From: Streptomyces sp. NBC_00659
Lineage (GTDB): Bacteria > Actinomycetota > Actinomycetes > Streptomycetales > Streptomycetaceae
Length of the DNA stretch: 64,000 nucleotides
Assembly: GCF_036226925.1 (NCBI RefSeq)
Contig: NZ_CP109031.1
Coordinates: 7,626,001-7,690,000, forward strand
Direction: 5' to 3'
Made by a program: the position numbers and the translations under genes. Positions 39,845 through 59,047 of the stretch are shown here, piece after piece. The notes beneath the pieces were generated by a model. That model did no database searches. It was not told the origin of the DNA and saw only the letters and a program-made list of their open reading frames with translations. The number at the start of each line of letters is the position of its first letter. Within the stretch, counting starts at the first letter, position 1.

Positions 39845-39869
39845 CTGTCGACGAAATATTGTCTACAGG
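39845..39869. promoter_or_regulatory. Operator-like element upstream of the PanE-like gene
   Basis: CTGTCGACGAAATATTGTCT (39845-39864) followed by ACAG, an imperfect palindrome of about 24 bp in an AT-rich island 47 bp upstream of the gene. It shares GTCGACGAA with the site at 57811. Confidence 0.55.
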
Positions 39870-40165
39870 ATGGAATGAGGGGCGACAAGGGTCCGCACAG
39901 CACCGGACCGGTCCCCGTGGCCGCCGCCGCGGCGGGCGGAACGGCGGGGCCGAGCGAGCGGGCAGCCGGGGCGCGGGCGGTCCGGCAGGGCGGCGCGGGC
40001 GGAACGCCGGGCGATGCGGGCCGGGCGCGCGAGGCGGTACGGGCGGCCGACCGGTGGGGCGGTACGGGCGGACCGACGGGGTGGCCGCTGCCGGACGGGA
40101 CGGGCCGGAGTGGCAGCCGGCGCCCGGTCGAGTGACCGTTCGTCGTGTCAGGGATACCGCTCATC
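39870..40165. other. Gene-free, GC-rich interval between divergent promoters
   Basis: About 300 bases of near-pure G/C with repeated GGCGG and GGTACGGGCGGACCG-like words. No ribosome site or supported reading frame was seen. Confidence 0.5.
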
Positions 40166-40187
40166 GCATACGGTCGACGGGTTTTGG
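40166..40187. promoter_or_regulatory. Operator-like element upstream of the OxlT-like gene
   Basis: GCATACGGTCGACGGGTTTT begins at 40166. It matches the perfect site at 57811 in 11 of the first 12 bases plus part of the second half, and ends nine bases before the -35 of the transporter gene. Confidence 0.55.
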
Positions 40188-40196
40188 TCAGGCCGC

Positions 40197-40225
40197 TTCA
40201 CAGCCGGGCGACCGCTTTCTATCGT
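40197..40225 (+). promoter_or_regulatory. Promoter of the OxlT-like transporter gene
   Basis: -35 TTCACA (40197-40202), 17-bp spacer, -10 TATCGT (40220-40225). The ATG follows at 40234 with no Shine-Dalgarno sequence, so the transcript is leaderless or nearly so. Confidence 0.6.
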
Positions 40226-40233
40226 CCCGGATC

Positions 40234-41565
40234 ATGAGCCCTCCTGTCGCACCCCCGGGTTGGAGCCGCTGGCTCGTCCCGCCGGCCGCCCTGTCGGTCC
40301 ATCTCTCCATAGGCCAGGCCTACGCCTGGAGCGTCTTCAAGCCGCCGCTCGAATCCGCGCTCGGTCTCAGCGGAACCCAGAGCGCCCTGCCCTTCCAGCT
40401 CGCCATCGTGATGCTCGGCCTGTCGGCCGCGTTCGGCGGCACCCTCGTCGAGCGCAACGGTCCGCGCTGGGCCATGACCGTCGCCCTCGTCTGCTTCTCC
40501 TCCGGCTTCCTCATCTCCGCGCTCGGCGCGGCCACCGAGCAGTACTGGCTGATCGTCCTCGGCTACGGCTTCGTCGGCGGCACCGGCCTCGGCATCGGCT
40601 ACATCTCACCCGTCTCCACCCTGATCAAGTGGTTCCCGGACCGGCCCGGAATGGCCACCGGCATCGCGATCATGGGCTTCGGCGGCGGCGCGCTGATCGC
40701 CTCGCCCTGGTCCGCCCAGATGCTGAAGTCGTTCGGCTCCGACTCCTCCGGGATCGCGGTCGCCTTCCTCGTCCACGGGCTGACGTATGCCGTGTTCATG
40801 ACCCTCGGTGTGCTGCTGGTGCGCGTGCCGCGCGGCGAGAAGCCGTCCGAGTCCGGTCCGAGCGCGCTCGACGGAGTCCAGGTCTCAGCCCGCAACGCCG
40901 TCCGCACCCCGCAGTTCTGGTGCCTGTGGGTCGTCCTGTGCATGAACGTCACCGCCGGCATCGGCATCCTGGAGAAGGCCGCCCCGATGATCACGGACTT
41001 CTTCGCGGACACCTCCACCCCGGTCACCGTCTCCGCCGCCGCCGGGTTCGTCGCCCTGCTCTCCGCCGCCAACATGGCCGGCCGGATCGGCTGGTCCTCG
41101 ACCTCCGACCTGATCGGACGCAAGAACATCTACCGGGTCTACCTCGGGGTCGGCGCCCTGATGTACGCGCTCATCGCCTGGTTCGGAGACTCCTCGAAAC
41201 CGCTGTTCATCCTGAGCGCGCTGGTGATCCTCTCCTTCTACGGCGGAGGCTTCGCCACGGTCCCCGCGTATCTGAAGGACCTGTTCGGCACCTACCAGGT
41301 CGGCGCCATCCACGGCAGGCTGCTCACCGCCTGGTCCACCGCCGGGGTCCTCGGACCGCTGATCGTGAACCGGATCGCCGACCACCAGGAGGCGGCGGGC
41401 AGGCACGGATCGTCCCTGTACGGAATGTCGTTCCTGATCATGATCGGGCTGCTCGCCGTCGGCTTCGTCGCCAACGAGCTCGTACGCCCCGTGGACGCCC
41501 GCCATCACATCCCCGCACCGAGGGAGGCCGCCGATGTCGCACGACAGCAGCCCGAGTCCGCCTGA
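40234..41565 (+). CDS. OFA-family MFS transporter (oxalate/formate antiporter type)
   Basis: 443 aa from ATG 40234, about twelve membrane helices. The first helix region SVHLSIGQAYAWSVFKPPLE, then IGYISPVSTLIKWFPDRPGMATG and GFGGGALIASPW, are hallmarks of the OFA branch of the MFS, whose prototype OxlT exchanges oxalate for formate. The loop RIGWSSTSDLIGRKNIYRVY is the MFS loop-8/9 motif. The gene overlaps a 44-aa membrane-protein gene by 32 bp. The fdhD neighbour and the operator shared with the frc locus support a carboxylate substrate. Exact substrate unproven. Confidence 0.88.
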   Translation: MSPPVAPPGWSRWLVPPAALSVHLSIGQAYAWSVFKPPLESALGLSGTQSALPFQLAIVMLGLSAAFGGTLVERNGPRWAMTVALVCFSSGFLISALGAATEQYWLIVLGYGFVGGTGLGIGYISPVSTLIKWFPDRPGMATGIAIMGFGGGALIASPWSAQMLKSFGSDSSGIAVAFLVHGLTYAVFMTLGVLLVRVPRGEKPSESGPSALDGVQVSARNAVRTPQFWCLWVVLCMNVTAGIGILEKAAPMITDFFADTSTPVTVSAAAGFVALLSAANMAGRIGWSSTSDLIGRKNIYRVYLGVGALMYALIAWFGDSSKPLFILSALVILSFYGGGFATVPAYLKDLFGTYQVGAIHGRLLTAWSTAGVLGPLIVNRIADHQEAAGRHGSSLYGMSFLIMIGLLAVGFVANELVRPVDARHHIPAPREAADVARQQPESA

Positions 41566-41668
41566 CCGGCGGGCCCTGACCGCCTTCGCCTGGCTGTGGG
41601 TGGGCGCGCCCCTGTGCTACGGCGTCTACGAGCTCGTACAGAAGGCCACCCAACTGTTCTCGGGGTAG
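41534..41668 (+). CDS. 44-aa single-helix protein, probable MFS transporter small subunit
   Basis: The ATG at 41534 lies inside the 3' end of the OxlT-like gene (32-bp overlap, other frame) after AGGGAGG. Protein: MSHDSSPSPPDRRALTAFAW, then LWVGAPLCYGVYELVQKATQ and LFSG. A short polar N-terminus with a DRR pair precedes one hydrophobic helix. Very short proteins of the form RR-x-AWLWVG-x-PL-x-GV-x-Q next to OFA-type MFS genes are, as I recall, labelled MFS transporter small subunit in automated annotation. The overlap implies coupled translation and a role with the transporter. Confidence 0.75.
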   Translation: MSHDSSPSPPDRRALTAFAWLWVGAPLCYGVYELVQKATQLFSG

Positions 41669-41804
41669 GTGTTCGGACGTCCCAAGGTCTGACAGAAGCC
41701 GACAAGCCTGGCGCCGCAATCCTGTGGCTTCACCTGCCGTCGTACTCGTGAGTCATTGATCAGACTGGTGGATCCCGCTACACGAAGCACGAGGGGGACC
41801 ACTC

Positions 41805-42752
41805 ATGAACGGCTCACGGATCGCCGCCGTCGGTCATTATCAGCCCGCCAAGGTACTCACCAACGAGGATCTGGCGGGCATGGTCGACACCAGTGACGAG
41901 TGGATCCGGAGCCGTGTCGGCATCCGGACCCGCCATGTCGCCGGGCCCGAGGAACCGGTCGACGAGCTGGCCGCGCACGCCGCCGCCAAGGCGCTCGCCT
42001 CCGCCGGTCTGACGCCCGGCGACATCGACCTCGTCCTCGTCGCCACCTCCACGGCCGTCGACCGCTCCCCGAACATGGCCGCGCGCGTCGCCGCCCGCCT
42101 CGGTATCCCCTCGCCGGCCGCGATGGACGTCAACGTGGTCTGCGCCGGGTTCACCCACGCCCTCGCCACCGCCGACCACGCCGTGCGCGCCGGTGCCGCG
42201 ACCCGGGCGCTCGTCATCGGCGCCGACAAGATGACCGACGTGGCGGACTGGACCGACCGCACCACGTGCGTCCTCGTCGGGGACGGCGCGGGGGCCGCCG
42301 TGGTCGAGGCCTGTCCCGCGGGCGAGGAGCCCGGCATCGGGCCGGTGCTCTGGGGTTCGGTGCCCGAGATGGGGCACGCGGTGCGCATCGAGGGCACTCC
42401 CTCGCGGTTCGCGCAGGAGGGGCAGAGCGTCTACCGCTGGGCCACCACACAGCTCCCGCCGCTCGCCCGCAAGGCCTGCGAGCGCGCCGGCCTCGTGCCC
42501 GAGGATCTCGCCGGGGTCGTCCTGCACCAGGCCAACCTGCGCATCATCGAGCCGCTCGCCCTGAAGATCGGCGCGGTCAACGCCGTCGTCGCGCGCGATG
42601 TCGTCGACTCCGGGAACACCTCCGCCGCGAGCATCCCGCTCGCCTTCTCCAAGCTCGTCGAGCGCGGAGAGATCTCCACCGGCGCCCCGGTCCTGCTGTT
42701 CGGCTTCGGCGGCAACCTCTCCTACGCGGGGCAGGTCGTCCGCTGCCCGTGA
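41805..42752 (+). CDS. Beta-ketoacyl-ACP synthase III (FabH-like)
   Basis: 315 aa, ATG 41805 with GAGGGGGA upstream. The Cys-His-Asn triad is intact: C113 (VVCAGFTHAL), H241 (VVLHQANLRI) and N271 (DSGNTSAAS). The FGFGGNLSYAG end is the FabH GxGG loop. FabH-type enzymes condense acyl-CoA with malonyl-ACP. It is not in a fab operon and has no ACP next to it, so it is a paralogue, either for an alternative starter unit or an acyl-transfer reaction. It sits between an OxlT-like transporter pair and a GntR regulator. Confidence 0.9.
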   Translation: MNGSRIAAVGHYQPAKVLTNEDLAGMVDTSDEWIRSRVGIRTRHVAGPEEPVDELAAHAAAKALASAGLTPGDIDLVLVATSTAVDRSPNMAARVAARLGIPSPAAMDVNVVCAGFTHALATADHAVRAGAATRALVIGADKMTDVADWTDRTTCVLVGDGAGAAVVEACPAGEEPGIGPVLWGSVPEMGHAVRIEGTPSRFAQEGQSVYRWATTQLPPLARKACERAGLVPEDLAGVVLHQANLRIIEPLALKIGAVNAVVARDVVDSGNTSAASIPLAFSKLVERGEISTGAPVLLFGFGGNLSYAGQVVRCP

Positions 42753-42881
42753 GGCGGCCCGAGCTGTCCGTGAGGCGGCCCGAGTCGTCCGTGAGGTGGC
42801 CCGAGCTGTCCGTCCGGCCCCCGCTTCCCCGGGTGTGACAAGCCCAACTCCCGTGCCTGTGACGGGTTTGTGCGCCGTAGA

Positions 42882-42905
42882 CTGTAGGCGAAAGACAATT
42901 GATAA
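42882..42905. promoter_or_regulatory. AT-rich operator-like element upstream of the GntR gene
   Basis: CTGTAGGCGAAAGACAATTG starts at 42882 and shares CTGT-x-G-x-CGAAA with the site at 39845. It lies about 50-70 bp upstream of the GntR start and may mediate autoregulation. Confidence 0.4.
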
Positions 42906-42951
42906 TCGACTTTCCTATCGCGGCGACGACGCTGCCCAGGGAGGGACCGTG

Positions 42952-43626
42952 ATGTTGTCGACAGGCCTGCCTCAGGGAGCGGTACCCAGGCTCGAGCGGC
43001 CCGGCCCGCTCCGTGACCGCGTCTACGAGGCGCTGCTCGAACTCATCACCACCCGCGCCCTCCAGCCGGGCCAGCACCTGGTCGAGAGCGAACTCGCCGG
43101 TCATCTCGGAGTCTCCCGGCAGCCGGTGCGGGAGGCTCTGCAGCGGCTGAGCACCGAGGGCTGGGTCGATCTGCGGCCCGCCCAGGGCGCGTTCGTGCAC
43201 GAGCCGACCGAGGCGGAGGCCGACCAGCTCCTCACGGTCCGTACGCTCCTGGAGGCCGAGGCGGCCCGTCTCGCCGCCGCCAACGCGGATCCCGCCGCCA
43301 TCAGCGCGCTCGAAGACCTGTGCACCGAGGGCGAACGGGCGGTCGCCGAGGACGACGTCGACGCCGCGGTCGCGACGAACGCGCGGCTGCACGCCAAGGT
43401 CATGGAACTCGCCGGCAACACCGTCCTCGCCGAGCTCGCCGCGCAGGTCGACCGCAGGGTCCGCTGGTACTACACACCCGTGGCCCGCCAGCGCGGGCGG
43501 CAGTCCTGGATCGAGCACCGCGAACTGATCGCCGCGATGGCGGAGCGCGACGGACAGCGGGCCACCGCGGTCATGCGGGCGCACACGGAGCACACGCGGC
43601 AGATGTACCACGACCGCGAGAAGTAG
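42952..43626 (+). CDS. GntR-family transcriptional regulator, FCD subfamily
   Basis: 224 aa. ATG 42952 follows GGGAGGG by six bases; GTG one codon earlier is equally placed. The winged HTH (LRDRVYEALLELITTRALQ, ESELAGHLGVSRQPVREALQ) is followed by the all-helical FCD domain with the metal/ligand-binding pattern D-x3-R and three His (NARLHAKVMELAGN, EHRELIAAMAERD, MRAHTEHTRQMY). FCD regulators usually sense small carboxylates or related metabolites. This is the best candidate regulator of the oxalate-type genes on both sides, because related operator-like sites occur upstream of it, of the PanE/OxlT pair and of frc/sucCD. Confidence 0.88.
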   Translation: MLSTGLPQGAVPRLERPGPLRDRVYEALLELITTRALQPGQHLVESELAGHLGVSRQPVREALQRLSTEGWVDLRPAQGAFVHEPTEAEADQLLTVRTLLEAEAARLAAANADPAAISALEDLCTEGERAVAEDDVDAAVATNARLHAKVMELAGNTVLAELAAQVDRRVRWYYTPVARQRGRQSWIEHRELIAAMAERDGQRATAVMRAHTEHTRQMYHDREK

Positions 43627-43629
43627 CAG

Positions 43630-43648
43630 GCCGGCGGCCGCCGCCGGC
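43630..43648. terminator. Hairpin between convergent GntR and LtrA genes
   Basis: GCCGGCGG (43630-43637) pairs with CCGCCGGC (43641-43648) around a 3-nt loop, four bases past the GntR stop. Confidence 0.5.
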
Positions 43649-43683
43649 TCCGCCGGTCGGTCGGTGGATGCCGTCTCCCACCG

Positions 43684-44955
43684 TCAGGCGGCGGGCGCCG
43701 TCACCGTGCGGGGGCCGGTGCCCGAGGGCGACCAGCGGGCCTCCGCGCCGAGCATCACCACCAGCACCCCCACCAGCGCCAGCAGTTCGACGACCGCCGA
43801 GAACCGGATGCCGAGCAGCGCCGTGGCCGCCGCGACGGGTACCGCGACCGCGCGGAACGTCACCGGCCACAGCCGCAGCACCGAACGGAACGCCACGTCC
43901 CCGGCGAGGAACAGCGCGACCCCGCCCGCGAGCGTCAGCGCGGGCCCGGTGGCGGACTGTTCGGTGAGATGGCCGAGCGTCTTCTTCACACCGGCCGCGC
44001 AGTAGGCGATGCCGAGCAGCATGGGAAGGAAGGCGTAGTAGTACGCGTTCATCGCCAGGCGCCAGCGACGGTCCGGCGGTGTCGCCGTGAACACGGCCTC
44101 CGCCGCGTGTTCGTCGCGTACGAAGTACGTCCACCACAGGGCACCGGCCAGCGCGAGCGCGAGGAAGGCACCGACGAACAGATCCACGGTGAGCGGCCGG
44201 CTCCCGATCCCGATGCCGATCGCGATGACGGACTCGCCGAACGCGACGATGAGCAGCAGCCCGTGCCGCTCGACGAAGTGGGCCGGGTCGAGCGCCCCCA
44301 ACTGCGTGCGCAGCACCACGGCGTCACGCCCGCCCCGGCGCCTGGCCCCGTGTTCGGCGAGGAACGGTGTGACGAACTGCAGGACCAGAGCCAGCAGCCA
44401 CAGACCGTCGGCGCGCGGGCCGTCGAACAGCCCCGCCGCCGTGACGGCCAGCGCGGCGAGCGCGTTCGGCACCGCGTACCAGACGACATCACGGCCGTGG
44501 CTGCGGGTGTAGAGCGCGCTGTGCACGAGGACGACGGCCAGGAAGCCCAGGCCGAAGACCACACCGCCGTCGTCGAAGGCGCGCGGGATGGCCAGCGCGC
44601 ACACCAGGAACGTACCCATGCCCAGCATCAGCAGGATCCGCCGTGAAGGCCGGTCGGGCGGAACCTGGTTGGTGAGATACGCGTACGCGCCGTACATCCA
44701 GAACAGCACCACGAAGATCAGCGCGACGCGGGCCGCCGTCGCGAACGACAGATCGGCGGCGAGCAGCACGGTGAGCTGGGTGAGGGTGAAGACGAAGACG
44801 AGGTCGAAGAAGAGCTCCAGCGTACTGACGCGCCGCCCCGCCTCGTCGCCCGCCGACTGGGCGGTCCCGCCCGCCGACCGCGTGGTTCCCTGTGCCGCCG
44901 AACGCTCCGCCTCGGCCACCGGTGTGTGCCCCGGACCGTCCCCTGCCCTGTTCAT
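43684..44955 (-). CDS. Low-temperature-requirement protein A (LtrA) family membrane protein
   Basis: 423 aa from ATG 44955 with GGGGGG upstream. A 40-residue Ser/Ala/Gly-rich cytoplasmic start leads into about ten to eleven membrane helices. LtrA signatures are VSTLELFFDLVFVFTLTQLT in the first helix, HFVERHGLLLIVAFGESVIAIG in the middle and YYYAFLPMLLGIAYCAAG near the end. The family was named from a Listeria mutant that fails to grow in the cold; the biochemical role is unknown. No operon partner. Confidence 0.9.
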   Translation of the reverse strand: MNRAGDGPGHTPVAEAERSAAQGTTRSAGGTAQSAGDEAGRRVSTLELFFDLVFVFTLTQLTVLLAADLSFATAARVALIFVVLFWMYGAYAYLTNQVPPDRPSRRILLMLGMGTFLVCALAIPRAFDDGGVVFGLGFLAVVLVHSALYTRSHGRDVVWYAVPNALAALAVTAAGLFDGPRADGLWLLALVLQFVTPFLAEHGARRRGGRDAVVLRTQLGALDPAHFVERHGLLLIVAFGESVIAIGIGIGSRPLTVDLFVGAFLALALAGALWWTYFVRDEHAAEAVFTATPPDRRWRLAMNAYYYAFLPMLLGIAYCAAGVKKTLGHLTEQSATGPALTLAGGVALFLAGDVAFRSVLRLWPVTFRAVAVPVAAATALLGIRFSAVVELLALVGVLVVMLGAEARWSPSGTGPRTVTAPAA

Positions 44956-45188
44956 GTGTCCCCCCGCGACAGATGGTCTGCGGAGATCGTATGCGGCTGT
45001 CTCGCCGCGAGGCGGGGTCCTTCGCCCTCCGATCTCTCTTTGTCCTGCGAGTGGAGAAAGTCTGCTGCAATCCCTGCACTACTTCTTCCCACTCCCGGCA
45101 GCCACTGCTACGTTCCCCTCGAAAGCGCGACCGGTGACGGTGGCCGGAACCTGTCGACGCAGGTGCCGGCCGAGGCGGGGAGGGGTTC

Positions 45189-46379
45189 GTGAGACGTATG
45201 ACGGCGCGACCCGCGAACGCCCATCAGGCCCGGCTGCTGAGGCTGTTGCGTGACGGCGGCCCCAACTCCCGTGCCCAGCTGGGCGATCACATCGACCTCT
45301 CCCGGTCGAAGCTGGCCGTCGAGGTGGACCGGCTGCTGGAGACCGGCCTCGTGGTGGCCGACGGACTCGCCGCCTCGCGGGGCGGCCGCCGCTCCCACAA
45401 CATCCGGCTCGCACCGGCGCTGCGGTTCCTGGGCGTCGACATCGGCGCCACCTCGGTCGACGTGGCCGTCACCAACGCCGAGCTGGAGATCCTCGGACAC
45501 ATCAACCAGCCCATGGACGTACGCGAGGGCCCGGTCGCGGTGTCGGAGCAAGTGCTGTCCATGGCGGCCAAGTTGAGGGCTTCGGGGATCGCGGAGGGAT
45601 TCGACGGGGCGGGGATCGGCGTTCCCGGTCCCGTCCGCTTCCCCGAGGGTGTCCCGGTCGCCCCGCCGATCATGCCGGGCTGGGACGGCTTCCCGGTCCG
45701 CGAGGCGCTCAGCCAGGAACTCGGCTGTCCGGTCATGGTCGACAACGACGTGAACCTGATGGCCATGGGGGAGCAGCACGCGGGCGTCGCCCGCTCCGTG
45801 GGCGACTTCCTCTGCGTCAAGATCGGCACCGGCATCGGCTGCGGCATCGTCGTCGGCGGAGAGGTCCACCGTGGTGCGACGGGCAGCGCCGGCGACATCG
45901 GGCACATCCAGGCCGTGCCCGACGGGCGTCCGTGTGCCTGCGGCAACCGGGGCTGCCTGGAGGCCCACTTCAGCGGTGCCGCGCTCGCGCGCGACGCCGT
46001 CGAGGCGGCCCAGCAGGGCCGCTCGGCCGAACTCGCCACGCGACTGGCGGCGAACGGCGCGCTGAGCGCCGTCGACGTGGCCGCGGCCGCTGCGGCGGGC
46101 GACGCCACCGCGCTCGATCTGATCCGCGAGGGCGGCAACCGCACCGGCCAGGTCATCGCGGCGCTCGTCAGCTTCTTCAATCCCGCCCTGGTGGTGATCG
46201 GCGGCGGGGTGACCGGGCTCGGCCACACCCTGCTCGCCGCGATCCGCACCCAGGTCTACCGCCAGTCGCTCCCGCTCGCGACCGGCAACCTGCCCATCGT
46301 CCTCGGGGAACTGGGCCCGACCGCCGGAGTCATCGGCGGGGCCCGGCTGATCAGCGACCACCTGTTCTCGACCGCGTAG
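45189..46379 (+). CDS. ROK-family transcriptional regulator
   Basis: 396 aa, GTG 45189 after GGGGAGG. N-terminal winged HTH (RLLRLLRDGGPNSRAQLGDH, DLSRSKLAVEVDRLLETGLV), then a ROK sugar-kinase-like domain with FLGVDIGATSVDVAVTNAEL and the zinc motif CACGNRGCLEAH. This combination marks XylR/NagC-type repressors that bind a sugar or sugar phosphate, not glucokinases. It stands 157 bp upstream of a sugar ABC transporter gene on the same strand and probably controls it. An AT-richer patch upstream contains TGCTGCAATCCCTGCA as a possible operator. Confidence 0.9.
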   Translation: MRRMTARPANAHQARLLRLLRDGGPNSRAQLGDHIDLSRSKLAVEVDRLLETGLVVADGLAASRGGRRSHNIRLAPALRFLGVDIGATSVDVAVTNAELEILGHINQPMDVREGPVAVSEQVLSMAAKLRASGIAEGFDGAGIGVPGPVRFPEGVPVAPPIMPGWDGFPVREALSQELGCPVMVDNDVNLMAMGEQHAGVARSVGDFLCVKIGTGIGCGIVVGGEVHRGATGSAGDIGHIQAVPDGRPCACGNRGCLEAHFSGAALARDAVEAAQQGRSAELATRLAANGALSAVDVAAAAAAGDATALDLIREGGNRTGQVIAALVSFFNPALVVIGGGVTGLGHTLLAAIRTQVYRQSLPLATGNLPIVLGELGPTAGVIGGARLISDHLFSTA

Positions 46380-46422
46380 ACCACCTCCAGGAATCGGACC
46401 ACCGGCGCCGGGTCGCGCTCCG

Positions 46423-46484
46423 CCGTACCCGAAATCCCCTGCTCCGCACCCGAAATCCCCGCTCCGTACCCGAAACACCCCGCC
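46423..46484. repeat. Three tandem 20-21-bp repeats between ROK and ABC genes
   Basis: Units begin at 46423, 46444 and 46464 (CCGTACCCGAAATCCCCTGC and two variants). They lie between the ROK stop and the ABC gene start, where they could affect transcription or RNA structure. Confidence 0.6.
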
Positions 46485-46536
46485 CGTACGCGCACCACCC
46501 GGCAACCGGCCCGCACGCCTGTCCGAGGGAACCGTC

Positions 46537-48075
46537 ATGGCACCAGAACCACCGCTGCTCACCATGTCCGGCATCACCAAGTCGTTCCCCGGAGTCCGGG
46601 CCCTCGACGGCGTCGACCTCGGCGTCCAGGCCGGCGAGGTGCACTGTCTGCTCGGCCAGAACGGCGCCGGGAAGTCCACGCTCATCAAGGTCCTCTCCGG
46701 CGCCCACCAGCCCGACACCGGCACCATCGCCTGGCGCGGCGAGCCCGTCACCCTCAGGTCCCCGATCGCCGCCATGCGCCTGGGCATCGCCACCATCTAC
46801 CAGGAACTCGACCTGGTGGAGGGGCTGTCGGTCGCCGAGAACGTCCACCTCGGACACGAACCCACCACCGTGGGGTTCGTCGTCAGGGGCAAAGCCGCCA
46901 GGACGGCGACCGCCCTGCTGCTCAAGCGGCTCGGACACCCCGAGATCGACCCGGCCCGCCTTGTCGGTGAACTCTCCGCCGCCCAGCGGCAGATCGTCTC
47001 CATGGCGCGGGCGCTCTCGCACGACGTACGGCTCATCGTCATGGACGAGCCGTCCGCCGCACTCGACCCCGACGAGGTCGGCAATCTCTTCCGGATCGTC
47101 GGCGATCTCACCGCGGAAGGCGTTGCCGTCGTCTACATCTCGCACCGCCTGGAGGAGATCCGCCGCATCGGCGACCGCGTCACCGTGCTGAAGGACGGGC
47201 GCGCGGTGGCGGGCGGACTGCCCGCCAGGTCGACCCCGACGCGTGACGTGGTGGCGCTCATGACGGGGCGCAGCGTCGAGTACGTCTTCCCGGACCGGCC
47301 CCGCGCACGGCCATCGGGCGCACCGGTGCTCTCGGTCCAAGGACTGTCCCGCCAGGGGGAGTTCGCCCCGCTCGACCTCGACGTGCACCCGGGTGAAATC
47401 GTCGGCCTGGCCGGACTGGTGGGCTCCGGCCGTTCCGAGATCCTGGAGACGATCTACGGGGCCCGGGGACCGACCACCGGCCGGGTCAGCGTGAACGGGA
47501 AGCTGCTGCGCACCGGCAGCGTACGCGCCGCGGTGCGCGCCGGACTCGGACTGGCCCCCGAGGAGCGCAAGGCGCAGGCGCTGCTGATGCTGGAGTCGGT
47601 CACGCGCAACGTCTCCCTCTCCTCCATGTCCCGCTACGCGCACGGGGGCTGGATCGACCGGCGGGCCGAACGCGGGGCGGCCCGGGCGGCCACCCGCGAA
47701 CTCTCCCTGCGCCCCGACGATCCGGACCGCCCGGTCAGGACCCTGTCCGGCGGCAACCAGCAGAAGGCCGTGCTGGCGCGCTGGCTGCTGCGCGGCTGCC
47801 GTGTCCTGCTCCTCGACGAACCGACGCGCGGTGTCGACGTCGGGGCGCGCGCCGAGTTGTACGCGGTGATCCGCCGGCTCGCCGACGAGGGTCTGGCCGT
47901 CCTGCTGGTCTCCAGCGAGGTCCCCGAGGTGCTCGGGCTCGCCGACCGTGTCCTGGTGCTCCGCGAAGGGCGGGTCGTGCACACGGCGTCCGCCCACGAC
48001 CTCGACGAACACCGCGTCCTCGACCTCGTGCTGGAAGGAGGCCCCGTGGCCAGTGAAGGGAGTCCGGCGTCATGA
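46537..48075 (+). CDS. Sugar ABC transporter ATP-binding protein (RbsA/MglA type)
   Basis: 512 aa with two nucleotide-binding domains in one chain, as in ribose/galactose importers. NBD1: Walker A GQNGAGKST, signature region GELSAAQRQIVSMARAL, Walker B LIVMDEPSAALD. NBD2: degenerate Walker A GLVGSGRSE, signature LSGGNQQKAVLARWLLRG, Walker B VLLLDEPTRGVDVGAR. The unequal second Walker A is normal for this family. First gene of a tight operon with permease, binding protein, dehydrogenase and isomerase; the stop overlaps the permease start by 4 bp (ATGA). Confidence 0.93.
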   Translation: MAPEPPLLTMSGITKSFPGVRALDGVDLGVQAGEVHCLLGQNGAGKSTLIKVLSGAHQPDTGTIAWRGEPVTLRSPIAAMRLGIATIYQELDLVEGLSVAENVHLGHEPTTVGFVVRGKAARTATALLLKRLGHPEIDPARLVGELSAAQRQIVSMARALSHDVRLIVMDEPSAALDPDEVGNLFRIVGDLTAEGVAVVYISHRLEEIRRIGDRVTVLKDGRAVAGGLPARSTPTRDVVALMTGRSVEYVFPDRPRARPSGAPVLSVQGLSRQGEFAPLDLDVHPGEIVGLAGLVGSGRSEILETIYGARGPTTGRVSVNGKLLRTGSVRAAVRAGLGLAPEERKAQALLMLESVTRNVSLSSMSRYAHGGWIDRRAERGAARAATRELSLRPDDPDRPVRTLSGGNQQKAVLARWLLRGCRVLLLDEPTRGVDVGARAELYAVIRRLADEGLAVLLVSSEVPEVLGLADRVLVLREGRVVHTASAHDLDEHRVLDLVLEGGPVASEGSPAS

Positions 48076-49091: not shown

Positions 49092-49111
49092 CACGGGAAG
49101 GGTCCACCGCC

Positions 49112-50161: not shown

Positions 50162-50243
50162 TGCGCGCCGCCGACACCGGGGCCCGGTCCGGCGGGACCG
50201 GGCCCCACCCCCACCGCGCCACGACGACGAGGAGGACCCCCGT

Positions 50244-51455
50244 ATGGGACAGCCGGACCAGGGCGACGAGGCCGCGAAACCGCCCTTGGGCGTGGGCATG
50301 GTCGGTTACGCGTTCATGGGCGCCGCCCACTCACAGGGCTGGCGCACCGTGGGCCGTGTCTTCGACCTGCCGCGCCGCCCGGTCCTCGCCGCCGTGTGCG
50401 GCCGCGACGAACCGGCCCTGCGCGCGATGGCCGGCCGGCACGGCTGGGAAGCCGCCGAGACCGACTGGCGCGCGCTGATCGCCCGGGACGACGTCGATGT
50501 CGTCGACATCTGCACCCCCGGCGACAGCCACGCCGAGATCGCCGTCGCCGCGCTGGCCGCGGGCAAGCACGTGCTGTGCGAGAAGCCGCTCGCGAACACC
50601 GTCGAGGAGGCCGAGGCGATGGCGGAGGCCGCGTCCGAAGCCGCCGCACGCGGCCAGATCTCCATGGTGGGCTTCAACTACCGCCGCCTCCCCGCCGCGG
50701 CGCTCGCCCGCTCGATGGTGGCCGAGGGCCGCCTCGGAACCCTGCGGCACGTGCGGGTGACGTACCTTCAGGACTGGCTGACCGACCCGGAGTTCCCGCT
50801 CACCTGGAGACTCCGCAAGGAGAAGGCGGGCTCCGGCGCCCTCGGCGATCTCGGGGCCCACATCGTCGACCTCGCGCAGCACCTGGCGGGCGAGCCGCTC
50901 GACGGGGTCTCCGCGCTCACCGAGACGTTCGTCCGCCGACGGCCCCTGCCCGCGCGGGCGTCCGGCGGGCTGTCCGCCTCCGGGCCCGGACCGGGCTCCC
51001 CTTCGGGCGCCGTCACCGTCGACGACGCCGCCCTGTTCACCGCCCGCTTCGCCTCCGGAGCCCTCGCCTCCTTCGAGGCCTCCCGCTTCGCCGCCGGGCG
51101 CAAGAATTCCCTGCGCATCGAACTCAACGGCGAGCGCGGCTCGTTGGCCTTCGACCTGGAGCGGCTCAACGAACTCGCGTACCACGACCACACCGAGCCG
51201 GCCGCCCACGCGGGTTTCCGGCGCATCCTCGTCACCGAACCCGACCACCCCTATCTCGACGCCTGGTGGCCGCCGGGACACGGTCTCGGCTACGAGCACA
51301 CCTTCGTGCACCAGGCCCGCGACCTCGTCCAGGCCATCGCCGAAGGGCGGCCTCCCGCCCCGTCCTTCGCCGACGGACTCCAGATCCAGCGCGTCCTCGC
51401 TGCGGTCGAGGAGAGCGCCGGGAAGAACTCCACGTACACCCCCGTAGCGGTCTGA
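50244..51455 (+). CDS. Gfo/Idh/MocA-family oxidoreductase
   Basis: 403 aa, ATG 50244 with AGGAGG upstream. N-terminal Rossmann fold VGMVGYAFMGAAHSQGW, then VDICTPGDSHAEIAVAAL and the family motif KHVLCEKPLANT. The catalytic region in the second domain contains SGALGDLGAHIVDLAQHL, with Asp and His in the usual positions. A Gly/Ser/Pro insertion (PARASGGLSASGPGPGS) interrupts the sheet domain. Such enzymes oxidise sugars or polyols (inositol, 3-keto-glycosides). It follows the transporter and is paired with an isomerase, so it should act on the imported compound. Confidence 0.9.
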   Translation: MGQPDQGDEAAKPPLGVGMVGYAFMGAAHSQGWRTVGRVFDLPRRPVLAAVCGRDEPALRAMAGRHGWEAAETDWRALIARDDVDVVDICTPGDSHAEIAVAALAAGKHVLCEKPLANTVEEAEAMAEAASEAAARGQISMVGFNYRRLPAAALARSMVAEGRLGTLRHVRVTYLQDWLTDPEFPLTWRLRKEKAGSGALGDLGAHIVDLAQHLAGEPLDGVSALTETFVRRRPLPARASGGLSASGPGPGSPSGAVTVDDAALFTARFASGALASFEASRFAAGRKNSLRIELNGERGSLAFDLERLNELAYHDHTEPAAHAGFRRILVTEPDHPYLDAWWPPGHGLGYEHTFVHQARDLVQAIAEGRPPAPSFADGLQIQRVLAAVEESAGKNSTYTPVAV

Positions 51456-51467
51456 GGAGGCCCGGAA

Positions 51468-52472
<1,005 letters not shown>

Positions 52473-52533
52473 CCGGGGTCGGGGGACGGCGGACGGGGGC
52501 GGGGCCCGGGACGGGGGGCCGGGCCCCGTACAC

Positions 52534-52575
52534 GGAAGCGGCCCTCCTCGCCGTGCCGCGAGGAGGGCCGCTTCC
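52534..52575. terminator. Bidirectional terminator
   Basis: Perfect 18-bp stem (52534-52551 with 52558-52575) and a 6-nt loop, between the convergent isomerase gene and the 85-aa membrane-protein gene. The strongest hairpin in the window. Confidence 0.9.
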
Positions 52576-52593
52576 ACCGGTGCCCGCGGGCGC

Positions 52594-52851
52594 TCAGCCG
52601 ACGGGCTGTGGCCGGGGCGCCGAGCTGTCCGCGGTGCCGCGCCCCGGCTGCCGCAGCAGCAGGGCGACCGCGGCCGCCACCATGGAGATGCCGCCGGCCG
52701 TCGCGTACGCGCCGTCGTAGCCCCAGGCGGCGACCACCATCGAGCCGAGCCCGCCGCCGAACAGACCGCTGATCAGCTTTCCGCCGTACGCGCGCCCCCG
52801 GGCGCCGGGATCGTCCGGCGAGTCCCGCGCCGCGACGGGTTCCGCCGTCAT
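52594..52851 (-). CDS. 85-aa membrane protein, partial duplicate of the OxlT-like transporter C-terminus
   Basis: ATG 52851 overlaps the stop of the transporter gene (ATGA, 52848-52851). After about 20 polar residues (MTAEPVAARDSPDDPGARGR) it reads YGGKLISGLFGGGLGSMVVA, AWGYDGAYATAGGISMVAAA, VALLLRQPG and ends PRPQPVG. This lines up along its whole length with the last two helices of the upstream transporter (YSSKLISGLVGSGMGAVVVG, AWDYQGAFVLAGSIGLASAV, PNPQPLG), roughly half identical by eye. Codon usage is normal and the ORF is intact, so it is probably a functional two-helix accessory protein, not debris. Confidence 0.75.
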   Translation of the reverse strand: MTAEPVAARDSPDDPGARGRAYGGKLISGLFGGGLGSMVVAAWGYDGAYATAGGISMVAAAVALLLRQPGRGTADSSAPRPQPVG

Positions 52852-54236
52852 GACGCCATCTCCTCTCCGAGCGGCTGCGGATTGGGGACGACACGGGACT
52901 TGGGCCGGTCCGGTGACTTGAGGAACAGGGCCAGCACGGCGGACGCCAGACCGATGGACCCAGCGAGCACGAAGGCGCCTTGGTAGTCCCACGCGCCGAC
53001 GACGACCGCGCCCATGCCGGATCCCACGAGGCCCGAGATCAGCTTCGAGCTGTACACCATCCCGTAGTTGGAGGCGTTGTTGTTCTCGCCGAAGTAGTCC
53101 GCCGTCATGGCCGCGAACAGCGGGAAGATCGCGCCGCCGCCGAAGCCGGAGACCATGGAACAGAAGAGGAAGAACGGCATGCTGCCCATCTGGCCGGAGA
53201 CCAGCACACCGAACTGGGCGGAACCCAGCACCAGACACACGATGATCAGCGTGTGGCGCCGTCCGACGCGGTCGGAGATCCAGCCGATGATCCCGCGCCC
53301 GGTGCCGTTGACGATGGCCTTCAGCGACATCGCCGTGGCCACGATCCCGCCCGCGAAGCCCATGTCCTTGCCGAACGGGACCTGGAAGGCGATGCCGAAG
53401 ATGTTGATCCCGGCCGTGCACAGCAGACAGAACCACATCATCCACAGAACAGGGGTACGCGCGGCCTCCCTCGGGGTGTACTGCTTCACGGCCGGCGGGT
53501 TCTTCTCCAGCGCCCGCCGGATCTTCGGGTCGTCCGAGACCTTCAGCGGGTCCACGTCCGGCGGCCACCAGCCCTTCGGCGGGTCCTTGAAGAACCAGCC
53601 GGCCGCCGCGACCACCGCGCAGCAGAGCAGACCGACACCCACCAGGACACCCCGGTAGTTGCCCAGATCCATGTACGAGGTGAACAGGAAGACGAAGGGC
53701 ACGGACCCGTAGGCGAAACCGCCGTTGACGAAGCCCGTCTTGCCGCCCTTGCGCTCCGGGTACCACTTGCCGACCATGTTCACGCAGGTCGCGTAGACGA
53801 GACCCGCTCCGATGCCGCTGCACATGCCGAAGCCGAGATAGGCGACCACCACATGCGGCGCGAAGGCCAGGGCCACGTAGCCGAGCAGGGTGCCCAGCGC
53901 GCCCAGCAGCATCGCCGTACGGGCGGGGAGCCTGCCGCTCTCGCGCAGTTGCCCGGCTGGGAAGGCCACGGCCGCCTGGAAGAAGATCCAGACGCCCATC
54001 AGCCAGAAGATGTGTCCGCTGCTCCACAGATGAGCCTCGTGCAGTGTGTCCTCCGCCGACGTGAACGCGTACTCGGCGGAGCTGATGCCCATCATGCCCG
54101 CCCAGGGCAGGAAGACCATCCAGGCGCGTTTTCGGCCCATGATGTCGATGTCGGTCTCACCGACGCGGTACACGCGTCCGTTCCGGTCCCTCACCTCTTG
54201 ATGTGGCACCGATGTCGAATAGCCGGTGGTTGTCAT
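52848..54236 (-). CDS. OFA-family MFS transporter (OxlT-like), second copy
   Basis: 462 aa from ATG 54236 (AAGGGG twelve bases upstream; an in-frame ATG at 54287 is less likely). About twelve helices. OFA features: PAGQLRESGRLPARTAMLLG, GMCSGIGAGLVYATCVNMVGKWYP in sections, FVNGGFAYGSVPF, GRGIIGWISDRVGRRHTL and GFGGGAIFPLFAAMTADYFGENN. It follows frc and the ADP-forming ligase on the same strand, so oxalate, formate or a related diacid is the likely substrate. It is only distantly similar to the copy at 40234 and has a different type of small partner. Confidence 0.88.
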   Translation of the reverse strand: MTTTGYSTSVPHQEVRDRNGRVYRVGETDIDIMGRKRAWMVFLPWAGMMGISSAEYAFTSAEDTLHEAHLWSSGHIFWLMGVWIFFQAAVAFPAGQLRESGRLPARTAMLLGALGTLLGYVALAFAPHVVVAYLGFGMCSGIGAGLVYATCVNMVGKWYPERKGGKTGFVNGGFAYGSVPFVFLFTSYMDLGNYRGVLVGVGLLCCAVVAAAGWFFKDPPKGWWPPDVDPLKVSDDPKIRRALEKNPPAVKQYTPREAARTPVLWMMWFCLLCTAGINIFGIAFQVPFGKDMGFAGGIVATAMSLKAIVNGTGRGIIGWISDRVGRRHTLIIVCLVLGSAQFGVLVSGQMGSMPFFLFCSMVSGFGGGAIFPLFAAMTADYFGENNNASNYGMVYSSKLISGLVGSGMGAVVVGAWDYQGAFVLAGSIGLASAVLALFLKSPDRPKSRVVPNPQPLGEEMAS

Positions 54237-54359
54237 GTCGATCGAGATCCCCTTGCGTCGAAAGATCTGGTCAGCGCCCCCTGCCACATGCCTTTCGTGC
54301 GCTCACGGGTCCCGGGGGCGGCCGACGCGCACCGTCGGCCGGCCCCCTGCGTCCTCATG

Positions 54360-56507
54360 TCATGAACGACCCCCCAACAGGCCCGCCGCGCGCGCCCAGC
54401 GGTACTTCGCGCCGAGGACGGCCACCGGCATCTCGGTCGTGTACGGGTAGGCCACGACCCCTCGCTCGTACAGGTACCGGCACGCCTCCTCGACCTCGAC
54501 GTCACCCGCGAGCGACGCCACCACGGGCTTCTCGATGCCGCGTTCGCGGAACTCGGCCACCACGCGCGCGGTGAGCTCGGCGAAGACCATGGGAGGGGTC
54601 ACGACGGTGTGCCAGTAGCCGAGGACGAGCGCGTGGACGCGCGGGTCCTCCAGTCCGAGCCGGATCGTCGCCTCGTACGTCGACGGCGGTTCGCCGCCCG
54701 TGATGTCCACCGGGTTGCCCGCGGCCCCGAAGGGCGGGATGAACTCCCGGAAGGAGGCGTCCAGGTCCGGCGGGATCTCCATCAGGGACAGCCCGTTGTC
54801 GGTGACCGCGTCCGACAGCAGGACGCCGCTGCCGCCCGCGCCGGTGATGATCACGACGTTGTCGCCCCGGGGAGCGGGCAGCACCGGCAGGGCCCGCGCG
54901 TACTCCAGCATGTCGATCAGCCCGGGAGCCCGGATGACACCGGCCTGCCTGAGGATGTCGTCGTACACGGCGTCGTCGCCCGCGAGGGCCCCGGTGTGCG
55001 AGCCCGCGGCCCGCGCGCCGGCGGCGGTCCGCCCGGCCTTGAGGACGACGACGGGCTTCTTCGGGACGGTGGCGCGGGCCGCCTCCACGAAGGCGCGCCC
55101 GTCCTTGAGGTCCTCCAGATGCATCGCCACGCACCGGGTGTTCGGGTCCTCGCCGAACCAGGTGAGCAGGTCGTCCTCGTCCAGGTCCGCCTTGTTGCCG
55201 AGCCCCACGATCGCCGAGACCCCTGTCTTCGTGGTCCGGGCGAACCCCAGCACGGCCATGCCGATCCCACCGGACTGCGAGGAGAGCGCGACCCCGCCCT
55301 TCACGTCGTACGGCGTGCAGAACGTGGCGCACACGTCCTGCCAGGTCGAGTAGTAGCCGTAGATGTTCGGGCCGAGCAGCCGGATGCCGTACCGCTCGCC
55401 GATGGCCGTGATCTCGTCCTGGAGCGCCTGTTCGCCGGTCTCCGCGAAGCCGGAGGGGATCAGGACCGCGTTGGGGATGTTCTTGCGTCCGGCCTCCTCC
55501 AGGACCCGGGCCACCGCCCGCGCCGGGACGGCGAAGACCGCGACGTCCACCTCGCCGGGAATGTCCGCGACACTCGCGTAGGCCTTGCGTCCCTGGATGT
55601 CGTCGGCCCGGGGGTTCACCGGATGGATCTCGCCCGCGAAGCCCCCGTCGACGAGGTTCTTCAGCACCGCGTGGCCGATCTTGCCCGGGACGTCCGAGGC
55701 GCCGATCACGGCGATCGACCGCGGCCGCATCAGCCGGTCCATGGAGGCGAGGATCTCGTCCCGGGTGTACCGGCGCCGGCCGGCCGGAGGGCCCGCGCCG
55801 AGAATCACGCGGATGTCCGCCGCGATCGCCCCCCGCGGGCCGGCGATCACCGGGTTGAGGTCCACCTCGGCGATCTCGGGGAAGTCCGTGACGAGTTCGG
55901 AGACGCGGCGGATCTGCTCGGCGAGGGCCGTCCGGTCCACCGCGGGCCCGCCGCGCACCCCGTGCAGGACCTGCGCGCAGCGGATCGATTCGAGCATCGA
56001 CAGCGCCTCGTCGGCGTCCACCGGCGCCAGCCGGAAGGTGACGTCCCCCAGCACCTCGACCAGCACCCCGCCGAGACCGAAGGCGACGACCTTCCCGAAC
56101 GTCGGGTCGGTCACCGCGCCGACGATGACCTCCTGTCCGGGCGGGATCAGCTCCTGCACCTGGACGCCGTCGATCCGGGCGCGGGCGTCGTACGCGCGGG
56201 CGTTCTCGACGATCGCCCGGAAGGCAGCCCGTACCTCGGCTTCTCCCTCGACACCGACCAGCACCCCGCCCGCGTCGGTCTTGTGCAGGATGTCGGGGGA
56301 GACGATCTTCATCACCACGGGGCCGCCGAGGCGTTCCGCGTGCGTGACCGCCTCGTCCTCGTCGCGGGCCAGTTCCTCGCCGGGCACGGTGATCCCGTAG
56401 GCGTCGGCGATCTGCTTGCCCTCCGGTGCCGTCAGCGCGGTACGTCCCTGGCGCCGCACGCCGTCGAGGAGCGCCCGCACCCGGGCCACCCGGTCCTGAT
56501 CCGCCAT
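54360..56507 (-). CDS. Acetate--CoA ligase family protein (ADP-forming, alpha/beta fused)
   Basis: 715 aa, one base after the frc stop. Domain order is ATP-grasp first (about 1-235: GPVVMKIVSPDILHKTDAGG, VVAFGLGGVLVEVLGD, EVDLNPVIA), then CoA-binding (SIAVIGASDVPGKIGHAVLK) and the succinyl-CoA-ligase-like part (SSQSGGIGMAVLG, AGSHTGALAGDDAVYDD with the probable phospho-His). This beta-alpha order is seen in fused bacterial ADP-forming acyl-CoA synthetases. It would make or use an acyl-CoA with ATP/ADP. Tight coupling to frc suggests oxalyl-CoA, formyl-CoA or the acceptor CoA ester, which is inference. Confidence 0.9.
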   Translation of the reverse strand: MADQDRVARVRALLDGVRRQGRTALTAPEGKQIADAYGITVPGEELARDEDEAVTHAERLGGPVVMKIVSPDILHKTDAGGVLVGVEGEAEVRAAFRAIVENARAYDARARIDGVQVQELIPPGQEVIVGAVTDPTFGKVVAFGLGGVLVEVLGDVTFRLAPVDADEALSMLESIRCAQVLHGVRGGPAVDRTALAEQIRRVSELVTDFPEIAEVDLNPVIAGPRGAIAADIRVILGAGPPAGRRRYTRDEILASMDRLMRPRSIAVIGASDVPGKIGHAVLKNLVDGGFAGEIHPVNPRADDIQGRKAYASVADIPGEVDVAVFAVPARAVARVLEEAGRKNIPNAVLIPSGFAETGEQALQDEITAIGERYGIRLLGPNIYGYYSTWQDVCATFCTPYDVKGGVALSSQSGGIGMAVLGFARTTKTGVSAIVGLGNKADLDEDDLLTWFGEDPNTRCVAMHLEDLKDGRAFVEAARATVPKKPVVVLKAGRTAAGARAAGSHTGALAGDDAVYDDILRQAGVIRAPGLIDMLEYARALPVLPAPRGDNVVIITGAGGSGVLLSDAVTDNGLSLMEIPPDLDASFREFIPPFGAAGNPVDITGGEPPSTYEATIRLGLEDPRVHALVLGYWHTVVTPPMVFAELTARVVAEFRERGIEKPVVASLAGDVEVEEACRYLYERGVVAYPYTTEMPVAVLGAKYRWARAAGLLGGRS

Positions 56508-56508
56508 C

Positions 56509-57741
56509 TCAGATCACCCCGCCCGACTTGAGAAGCCGCAATTCCTCGTCGCCGAGGCCGAGTTCGCCGATGTAGATCTCCTCGTTGTGCTCACCGAGCA
56601 GCGGAGAGGCGGTGATGTCGACGGGGGAGTCGGAGAGCTTGAGCGGGCTGCCGACGGTGACGTAGGAGCCGCGCTCGGGGTGCTCGACCTCGACGACCAT
56701 GTCGTTGGCGGCGAGCGAGGAGTCCTCGATGATCTCCTTGGTCGACAGGATCGGCCCGCAGGGGATGCTCTCGGCGTTGAGTTTCTCCAGCACCTGCCAT
56801 TTGGGCAATGTCGTGGTCCATTCCTCGATGAGCTGGAACATCTTGGCGAGCTTCGGCAGCCGGGCCCCCGGGGTGGCCCAGCCGGGGTCCTCGGCCAGCT
56901 CGGGCCGGCCGATCAGCCGGGTGATGGGTTTCCAGCCGGCGGGCTGGACGATGACGTAGACGTAGTCGTTGGGGCCGCCGGGCGCGCACTTGACGGCCCA
57001 GCCGGGCTGGCCGCCCCCGGAGGCGTTGCCCGAGCGGGGGACCTCGTCGCCGAAGTCCTCGTTGGGGTACTCGGCGAGCGGCCCGTGGGCCAGGCGCTGC
57101 TGGTCGCGCAGCTTGACCCGGCAGAGGTTGAGGACGGCGTGCTGCATGGCCACGTTGACGCGCTGCCCGCGTCCGGTGCGGGTGCGCTGGAGGAGGGCAG
57201 CGAGGACGGCGGCGACGGCGTGGACGCCGGTGCCCGAATCGCCGATCTGGGCGCCGGTGGCCATCGGCGGGCCGTCCTCGAATCCGGTGGTGGCCATGGA
57301 ACCGCCCATGGCCTGCGCGACCACCTCGTACGCCTTGAAGTCGGTGTACGGGCCGTCCCCGAAGCCCTTGATGGAGGCGTAGACGATCCGCGGGTTGATC
57401 TCGCGGATGCGGTCCCAGGTGAAGCCCATGCGGTCGATCGCGCCGGGGCCGAAGTTCTCCACCATGACATCGGAGCGGCGGATCAGCTCGGTCAGAAGCT
57501 GTTTGCCGCGCTCGGTCTTGGTGTTGAGGGTGATGCTGCGCTTGTTGCTGTTGAGCATGGTGAAGTAGAGGGAGTCGGCGTCCGGGATGTCCCGCAGCTG
57601 GGCGCGGGTGATGTCACCGGTCGGCGCCTCGAGTTTGACCACGTCGGCGCCGAGCCATGCCATCAACTGGGTCGCCGAGGGACCGGACTGAACGTGCGTC
57701 ATGTCCAGGACCCGGATGCCTTCGAGAGCCTTGGTCGTCAC
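56509..57741 (-). CDS. frc: Formyl-CoA:oxalate CoA-transferase
   Basis: 410 aa from GTG/ATG at 57741 ([20 protein letters not shown]). The similarity to Oxalobacter Frc as I remember it is extensive: [48 protein letters not shown] with catalytic D168, [10 protein letters not shown], the glycine loop SGGGQPGW and [10 protein letters not shown]. It is a class III CoA-transferase that moves CoA from formyl-CoA to oxalate. It heads a minus-strand operon (frc, ligase, transporter, small protein) and is divergent from the SucC-like gene. Oxalyl-CoA decarboxylase, its usual partner, is not in the window. Confidence 0.9.
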
Positions 57742-57810
57742 AGGTCACCTCACTTGTCCGTTGCCTTGAGCCGCCCCGGTGCGGCGGCGGTGGGCCAGGT
57801 TCGGCACATT

Positions 57811-57835
57811 GCATACAGTCGACGAATACTGTATG
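57811..57835. promoter_or_regulatory. Operator between frc and the SucC-like gene
   Basis: Perfect 8-bp arms CATACAGT (57812-57819) and ACTGTATG (57828-57835) around CGACGAAT. It lies inside a plus-strand promoter TTGCAT (57809-57814) -17 bp- TATGAA (57832-57837) and a mirror-image minus-strand one (TTCATA, 16 bp, TATGCA), so a bound protein would block both directions. Confidence 0.7.
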
Positions 57836-57905
57836 AAGATTGTTATCCCGCATCCGATGGGTGATGTCCAGGGGTCGTGCACCACTTTCAGGACGGAGCC
57901 GAAAC

Positions 57906-59036: not shown

Positions 59037-59047
59037 AGGAGCGGGAC

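Follow-up and report, generated by a model that had tools for sequence, protein, structure and literature searches.

A shared operator-like element and a candidate FCD-type GntR regulator in a formyl-CoA gene group of Streptomyces

In a stretch of 64,000 nucleotides from Streptomyces sp. NBC_00659 (contig NZ_CP109031.1, positions 7,626,001 to 7,690,000; hereafter the window, whose coordinates are used below), a short sequence element recurs at four places: between the divergent genes frc, for formyl-CoA transferase, and sucC, for a SucC-like CoA ligase subunit, and before the genes for an OxlT-like transporter, a PanE-like reductase and an FCD-type GntR regulator, here called GntR-1. An earlier note, made from the sequence alone, had read these places as operators joining two distant arms of an oxalate/CoA regulon. 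We consider, with a probability of roughly three in four, that they are operators of one local regulator, GntR-1, whose predicted regulon would hold gntR, PanE, OxlT and the frc/sucCD divergon. As a group defined by a common cis element these genes are well supported by sequence comparison, and GntR-1 is likely to be their regulator. The earlier interpretation is partly supported: it stands in its shared and uncommon element, its GntR candidate and its split arms, while its oxalate label is doubtful.

The element in the window and in related genomes

The predicted operators are as follows.

57808-57839: double operator between the divergent frc and sucC genes; CGTCGACTGTATGCAAT at 57808-57824 (- strand) and CGAATACTGTATGAAGA at 57823-57839 (+ strand), including CATACAGT/ACTGTATG
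40163-40179, - strand: operator half before the OxlT-like gene, CGTCGACCGTATGCGAT
39845-39876: operator before the PanE-like gene; TCCATCCTGTAGACAAT at 39858-39874 (- strand), with the reverse reading at 39860-39876, plus GTCGAC at 39847-39852
42876-42892, + strand: operator before gntR, proposed to be autoregulatory, CGTAGACTGTAGGCGAA

The operator unit would be about 17 bp long, CGTMGACTGTAKRCRAT, and may be read as an imperfect palindrome, GYAKAC-N-GTMKRC. The distance between these sites and the start codons that they face is 55-67 bp, the frc/sucC site being 67 bp from each of its two start codons and the others 55-60 bp from theirs.

The strings on which the earlier note relied are present in the window. 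GCATAC-N-GTCGACG occurs twice, at 57811 (+) and 40166 (+); the palindrome CATACAGT/ACTGTATG between frc and the SucC-like gene is exact (57812-57819 and 57828-57835); and a degenerate string of the CTGT-G-CGAAA type lies before gntR (CTGTAGGCGAAA at 42882), the type being found twice (39845 and 42882). The string before the PanE-like gene is also there, but GTCGACGAA begins at 39847, and 39845 is the start of CTGTCGACGAAA. Because two of the four copies of GTCGACGAA in the window lie elsewhere (22239, -, and 22945, +), we rejected this string alone as an unspecific marker.

The longer forms of the element are rare in the 9,661,321 bases (9.66 Mb) of the organism's own genome. At up to two mismatches the inverted repeat CATACAGT/ACTGTATG has no second place in it, and at exactly three mismatches there are three other places, against one control match per strand. 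A two-mismatch search gave 798 forward matches and was too loose to use; the exact search for CATACNGTCGACG that was used instead found three places, against one control match. The window holds two of the three, and the remaining one is within a reading frame. The three exact places of CGTMGACYGTAKRCRAW all lie in the window by construction, since the pattern was derived from them. Its lack of any place at one mismatch, followed by 11 places at two mismatches (six control matches), is not by construction. As for whether the motif is frequent before unrelated genes, the genome scans found that it is not frequent elsewhere.

Conservation was examined in the best 80 of 588 confirmed frc relatives, nearly all of them Streptomyces, and in 30 orthologue loci each for OxlT, GntR and PanE, taken from 150 drawn genomes of the same genus, whose upstream DNA was aligned in register. 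CATACAGTATTCGTCGACTGTATG is found in 78 of the 80 frc relatives, 73 times exactly and five times with one mismatch. In the remaining two (L060 and L068) the operator takes the form of a 25-bp variant whose right half is intact; in these loci gntR and oxlT are divergent, and their common intergenic region matches the operator of the frc operon at 19 of 28 positions in register. In the genome sample, one position out of 798,920 matches as well as this. Among the orthologues, upstream sites with E < 0.01 were found for OxlT in 26/30 loci (with GCATACGGTCGACG in most), for PanE in 28/30 (in the form CCATACTGTAGACAATATT-GTCGACA) and for gntR in 30/30 (in the form GCCGTAGACTGTAGACGAAAGACAAT).

For each gene class, a matrix was built without the sites of that class and used to scan the window and, as background, 400 kb of the own genome (799,360 positions). 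With such class-left-out matrices, E was 0.0007 for the frc region, 0.0014 for the OxlT site and 0.0014 for the gntR site; for the PanE site the reverse reading gave 0.027 and the common register 0.093. The window's top five matrix matches are the frc/sucC, OxlT, PanE and gntR regions, the two frc/sucC halves scoring best and third best (27.7 and 24.0). The E values are not fully blind, because the matrix anchors were picked by eye from conserved blocks; they are conservative in that the background takes in 40 kb next to the cluster, where paralogous sites occur. An earlier matrix, in which the left frc half and the PanE site were misregistered, gave 0.0078 for OxlT and 0.043 for gntR and is superseded by the corrected register.

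It has to be asked whether AT-rich promoter islands of a GC-rich genome might merely look alike by chance. GTCGAC is common, with 172 matches on the two strands of the window together, but the longer unit is rare genome-wide and is conserved before orthologous genes; we therefore agree that the likeness is unlikely to be due to chance, and give that explanation almost no weight. A 24-bp palindrome as a single simple operator was also rejected, since the OxlT site holds one half of it and the PanE site another arrangement.

Another explanation is that the conserved block is mostly the promoter and leader of two divergent operons under some other regulator, its likeness to the OxlT, PanE and gntR sites being incidental. 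A profile of 79 sequences shows near-invariance in the 28 bp that run from CATACAGT to GCAAT but not past about +36, which favours the operators of GntR-1. In favour of the other explanation, about 50 further bp toward sucC are well conserved, more than a single operator requires. Against it, the class-left-out matrices find the OxlT, PanE and gntR regions, and the gntR/oxlT region of L060 and L068 repeats the operator in register, so that we regard this explanation as improbable. Across 26 aligned sequences, strong conservation is seen in the sucC leader itself (57836-57890, GTTATCCCGCAT...TGTCCAGGGG-CGTGC). An RNA fold in this leader received no support, as none of its 12 predicted pairs showed changes on both sides.

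GntR-1 as the candidate regulator

The proposed regulator is encoded next to the KAS III (beta-ketoacyl-ACP synthase III) type gene described below.

42952-43626, + strand: GntR-1, with a winged helix (PF00392, 69.2 bits, cut-off 27) and an FCD domain (PF07729, 88.8 bits, cut-off 24.3)

It reached the cut-off of no NCBIfam model, those for the named GntR regulators (PhnR, NanR, LldR, PdhR and others) included, the best being TIGR03338 with 110.9 bits against a cut-off of 271.5. Candidate histidine residues for a three-histidine metal site are visible by eye in its translation.

Co-occurrence was followed in 150 drawn genomes of the same genus (labelled G), in which matches to OxlT were found in 102, to GntR in 150 and to PanE in 120 genomes; operators were called at up to three mismatches. 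GntR-1 is present in 97 of these genomes, the operator in 77 and frc in 76. All 76 frc genomes hold GntR-1, as do 76 of the 77 operator genomes. Where operator and frc occur together (74 genomes), the former is 0-2.3 kb upstream of the latter in all but one. A close operator is missing from two frc genomes, G055 and G096, which both have the 25-bp variant; G008, G119 and G122 have the operator without an frc match. Of the 62 genomes in which one contig carries both GntR-1 and frc, 60 have them at most 45 kb apart (the exceptions are G090 and G092); in 14 further genomes they are on different contigs. With its own conserved site, its presence in every frc genome and its linkage to frc, the FCD-type GntR protein does appear to be the natural candidate that it had been taken for.

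The arm with GntR-1 also occurs by itself. Twelve genomes have GntR-1 and no match to either frc or OxlT, one of which (G119) does carry the frc operator. In these loci (L230-L241) the KAS III gene is beside GntR in 12/12 and fdhD in 11/12, and a site scoring above 12 is found before gntR in 9/12 and before the KAS III gene in 5/12. The KAS III gene is part of the GntR arm, and since frc and OxlT can both be missing where this arm is present, the regulator has no fixed link to oxalate.

A paralogue in the same genome, GntR-2, could be the main owner of the operators, or could share them with GntR-1. GntR-2 is 58% identical to GntR-1 and lies outside the window (C1:7702078-7702959); the helix-turn-helix segment GVSRQPVREALQRL is identical in both, and related sites near GntR-2, at C1:7701083 (TGCATACTGTATGCAGT) and 7703060, are more symmetric, with ATAC/GTAT palindromes. 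Sites of similar look also flank the GntR-2 type genes in G040 and G124. However, the GntR-2 type (56-60% identity) is found in 11 of the 150 genomes among the matches listed (to E of about 5e-29), against 77 with the frc operator; all 11 are among the 13 genomes that have a true gene for oxalyl-CoA decarboxylase (oxc), so that GntR-2 goes with oxc and not with the frc operator; and gntR-1 carries the element itself. We thus think it unlikely, though less so than the explanations above, that the operators belong mainly to GntR-2 or to both proteins. The GntR-2 gene and a formate dehydrogenase operon (TIGR01591, 903.3 bits, cut-off 666.25) are divergently oriented; a LysR gene and the true oxc follow, all of this just outside the window (L198:12078-18145, C1:7702078-7708145). 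In G040 and G124 (L228 and L229), a second frc is accompanied by two genes of the GntR-2 type and by several symmetric sites, TCCATACGGTATGCAAT being one example.

If GntR-1 is the regulator, the symmetrical element, which lies halfway between the frc and sucC start codons, would consist of two units, and GntR dimers there would hold back the frc-ligase-transporter operon and sucCD; dimers would also sit before OxlT, PanE and gntR. A carboxylic acid or a CoA ester of the formyl-CoA pathway may then release GntR, and this ligand need not be oxalate. Sequence comparison shows that the element is shared, rare, conserved and associated with frc and gntR; what we infer is that GntR-1 binds it, that GntR-1 probably acts as a repressor and not as an activator, and what its ligand would be. 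The symmetrical 67-bp placement, together with the 55-60 bp before the other start codons, suggests that the operators lie over or beside promoters and hence points to repression with autorepression, as described for HypR (PMC6608401).

Several observations weigh against assigning the four places to GntR-1. A sigma-70 consensus promoter was sought at the frc/sucC site and not found. No one simple symmetric sequence accounts for the half-sites, whose spacing and orientation vary among the four regions; the PanE site is the weakest in the window, reaching its lower E value only when reversed and 0.18 in the earlier misregistered run. Neither the genome scan nor the matrix found such an operator at the genome's own true oxc. 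In G092 the operator is far from the frc match, and G008 is the only genome with the operator and without GntR-1. Conversely, 21 of the 97 GntR-1 genomes have no close operator: two (G055 and G096) have the 25-bp variant, and 19 have no frc match, which implies that GntR-1 has other work too. GntR-1 is missing from 7 of 79 OxlT genomes. The Fisher p of 1e-21 for co-occurrence overstates the case, because genomes of one genus are not independent.

The two arms and the question of oxalate

The genes of the two arms are listed below, MFS standing for major facilitator superfamily.

56509-57741, - strand: frc, formyl-CoA transferase (TIGR03253, 677.9 bits, cut-off 504.2)
54360-56507, - strand: ADP-forming acyl-CoA ligase of the acetate--CoA ligase type (Pfam ligase domains above cut-offs; below NCBIfam cut-offs)
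52848-54287, - strand: MFS transporter of the oxalate/formate antiporter kind (TIGR00890, 183.4 bits, below the cut-off of 374.85)
57906-59036, + strand: SucC-like CoA ligase beta subunit (NF001913, 478.2 bits, cut-off 370), its GTG start at 57906 selected by similarity
58553-59986, + strand: open frame whose second half is SucD-like, by eye from the translation
40234-41565, + strand: OxlT-like MFS transporter (SfMCT L-lactate transporter model, 307.6 bits, cut-off 320)
38827-39798, - strand: PanE/ApbA family reductase (NF005089, 464.8 bits, cut-off 223)
37788-38651, - strand: fdhD, formate dehydrogenase sulfurtransferase (NF001943, 399 bits, cut-off 269)
41805-42752, + strand: KAS III type gene between OxlT and gntR (NF006829, 366.6 bits, cut-off 249)

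In 11 of the 80 frc relatives, a count limited by the flanks, GntR, KAS III or OxlT genes lie within 9 kb after the frc-ligase-transporter genes. Since the arms adjoin in these loci, the sugar operon is what separates them in the window, in agreement with the proposal of one regulon split by a sugar operon. Beside this operon, at 52597-52839, lies the remnant of another transporter of the oxalate/formate type, which matches the last 87 residues of the second L001 transporter with 71% identity; two transporter calls are found at the corresponding place in 27 of the 80 loci. The remnant fits an insertion with loss.

In 76 of the 80 loci a gene for a thiamine-diphosphate enzyme, 70-100% identical to the protein of L002, lies between the operator and frc, whereas in L001, L039, L067, L071 and the window the element directly precedes frc.

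L002:7307-8989: thiamine-diphosphate enzyme, first gene of the frc operon in L002 and absent from the operon of the window

This gene was rejected as an oxalyl-CoA decarboxylase gene, as the L002 protein reached 242.7 bits with TIGR03254 against a cut-off of 739.4. It stayed under the cut-offs of all NCBIfam models listed, including those of the 2-hydroxyacyl-CoA lyase model NF058623 (370.1 bits, cut-off 600) and the acetolactate synthase model (503.6 bits, cut-off 587). Among proteins of known structure, its best matches bear the name 2-hydroxyacyl-CoA lyase (293.7 bits), and it is about 28% identical to the true oxc product of the window's genome, which scores 996.5 bits (cut-off 739.4) and whose gene lies 26 kb from frc.

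True oxc is above its cut-off in 13 of the 150 genomes, the own genome among them, against 76 with frc. In nine of the 73 genomes with the operator near frc there is no room for the enzyme (less than 300 bp), and true oxc is present in all nine; in the other 64 genomes it is present twice (G028 and G111). In other words, oxc and the thiamine-diphosphate enzyme are largely mutually exclusive in this operon setting, which fits either a replacement within one pathway or a change of substrate.

The oxalate label is plausible in the window's own genome, where frc and oxc are both over their cut-offs, but doubtful for the original substrate of the regulon: the enzyme before frc in most relatives is, to judge by the L002 protein, no oxalyl-CoA decarboxylase, and the OxlT-like protein did not reach the cut-offs of the oxalate/formate antiporter models (TIGR04259, 141.9 bits against 335; TIGR00890, 179.4 against 374.85). 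We speculate, as one joint proposal to which we give rather less than even odds, that the regulon does not serve oxalate use of the classical kind. Under this proposal GntR-1 would control, in most frc-bearing Streptomyces, a formyl-CoA pathway that starts with a thiamine-diphosphate lyase of the 2-hydroxyacyl-CoA lyase or acetolactate synthase kind and also includes frc, SucCD, a CoA ligase and an aldehyde dehydrogenase. Those that truly use oxalate would be a minority: they would have gained oxc, the formate dehydrogenase operon and GntR-2, and their operon would mostly have lost the lyase, both regulators having one operator family over about 48 kb. An operon that is easily mistaken for one of oxalate use may serve another substrate, and this question is the more interesting part of the result. 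On the regulatory side, the formyl-CoA operon, present in about half of the 150 genomes, gains a candidate regulator and an exact predicted operator.

Comparison with known regulators

A literature search over titles and abstract openings, covering few subscription papers, returned no description of such a regulator. The closest frame is the FadR/FCD subfamily, with its GntR winged helix and FCD domain, small organic acids as effectors and the operator consensus NyGTM-N0-1-KACNy (PMC4494728); the word oxalate is absent from the main text of that paper. The GT-M-K-AC core of such operators would be held by the present unit too, and by eye the consensus core is present as GTCGAC at frc, OxlT and PanE and as GTAGAC at gntR and PanE (on the panE strand). 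Unlike the operators described there, the present units are paired or half-degenerate, have ATAC/GTAT arms and vary in spacing by target.

Within the same genus, HypR of Streptomyces coelicolor is an FCD-type GntR protein that controls a catabolic gene set with dispersed targets and is described as a repressor and autorepressor; it differs in its substrate, L-hydroxyproline, and in its motif, CTNTGC(A/C)ATGTCAC (PMC6608401). Atu1419 of Agrobacterium fabrum is likewise an FCD regulator with autorepression, and each control region has more than one of its short palindromes, ATGTATACAT, which have a GTATAC core. It differs in being reported as a tetramer on sites 190 bp apart, with looping seen by microscopy, a folate effector and hydroxycinnamic acid genes as targets (PMC7797058). 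Set beside these systems, the kind of control proposed here is ordinary, and in most relatives it is the pathway under this control that looks unlike the textbook oxalate route.

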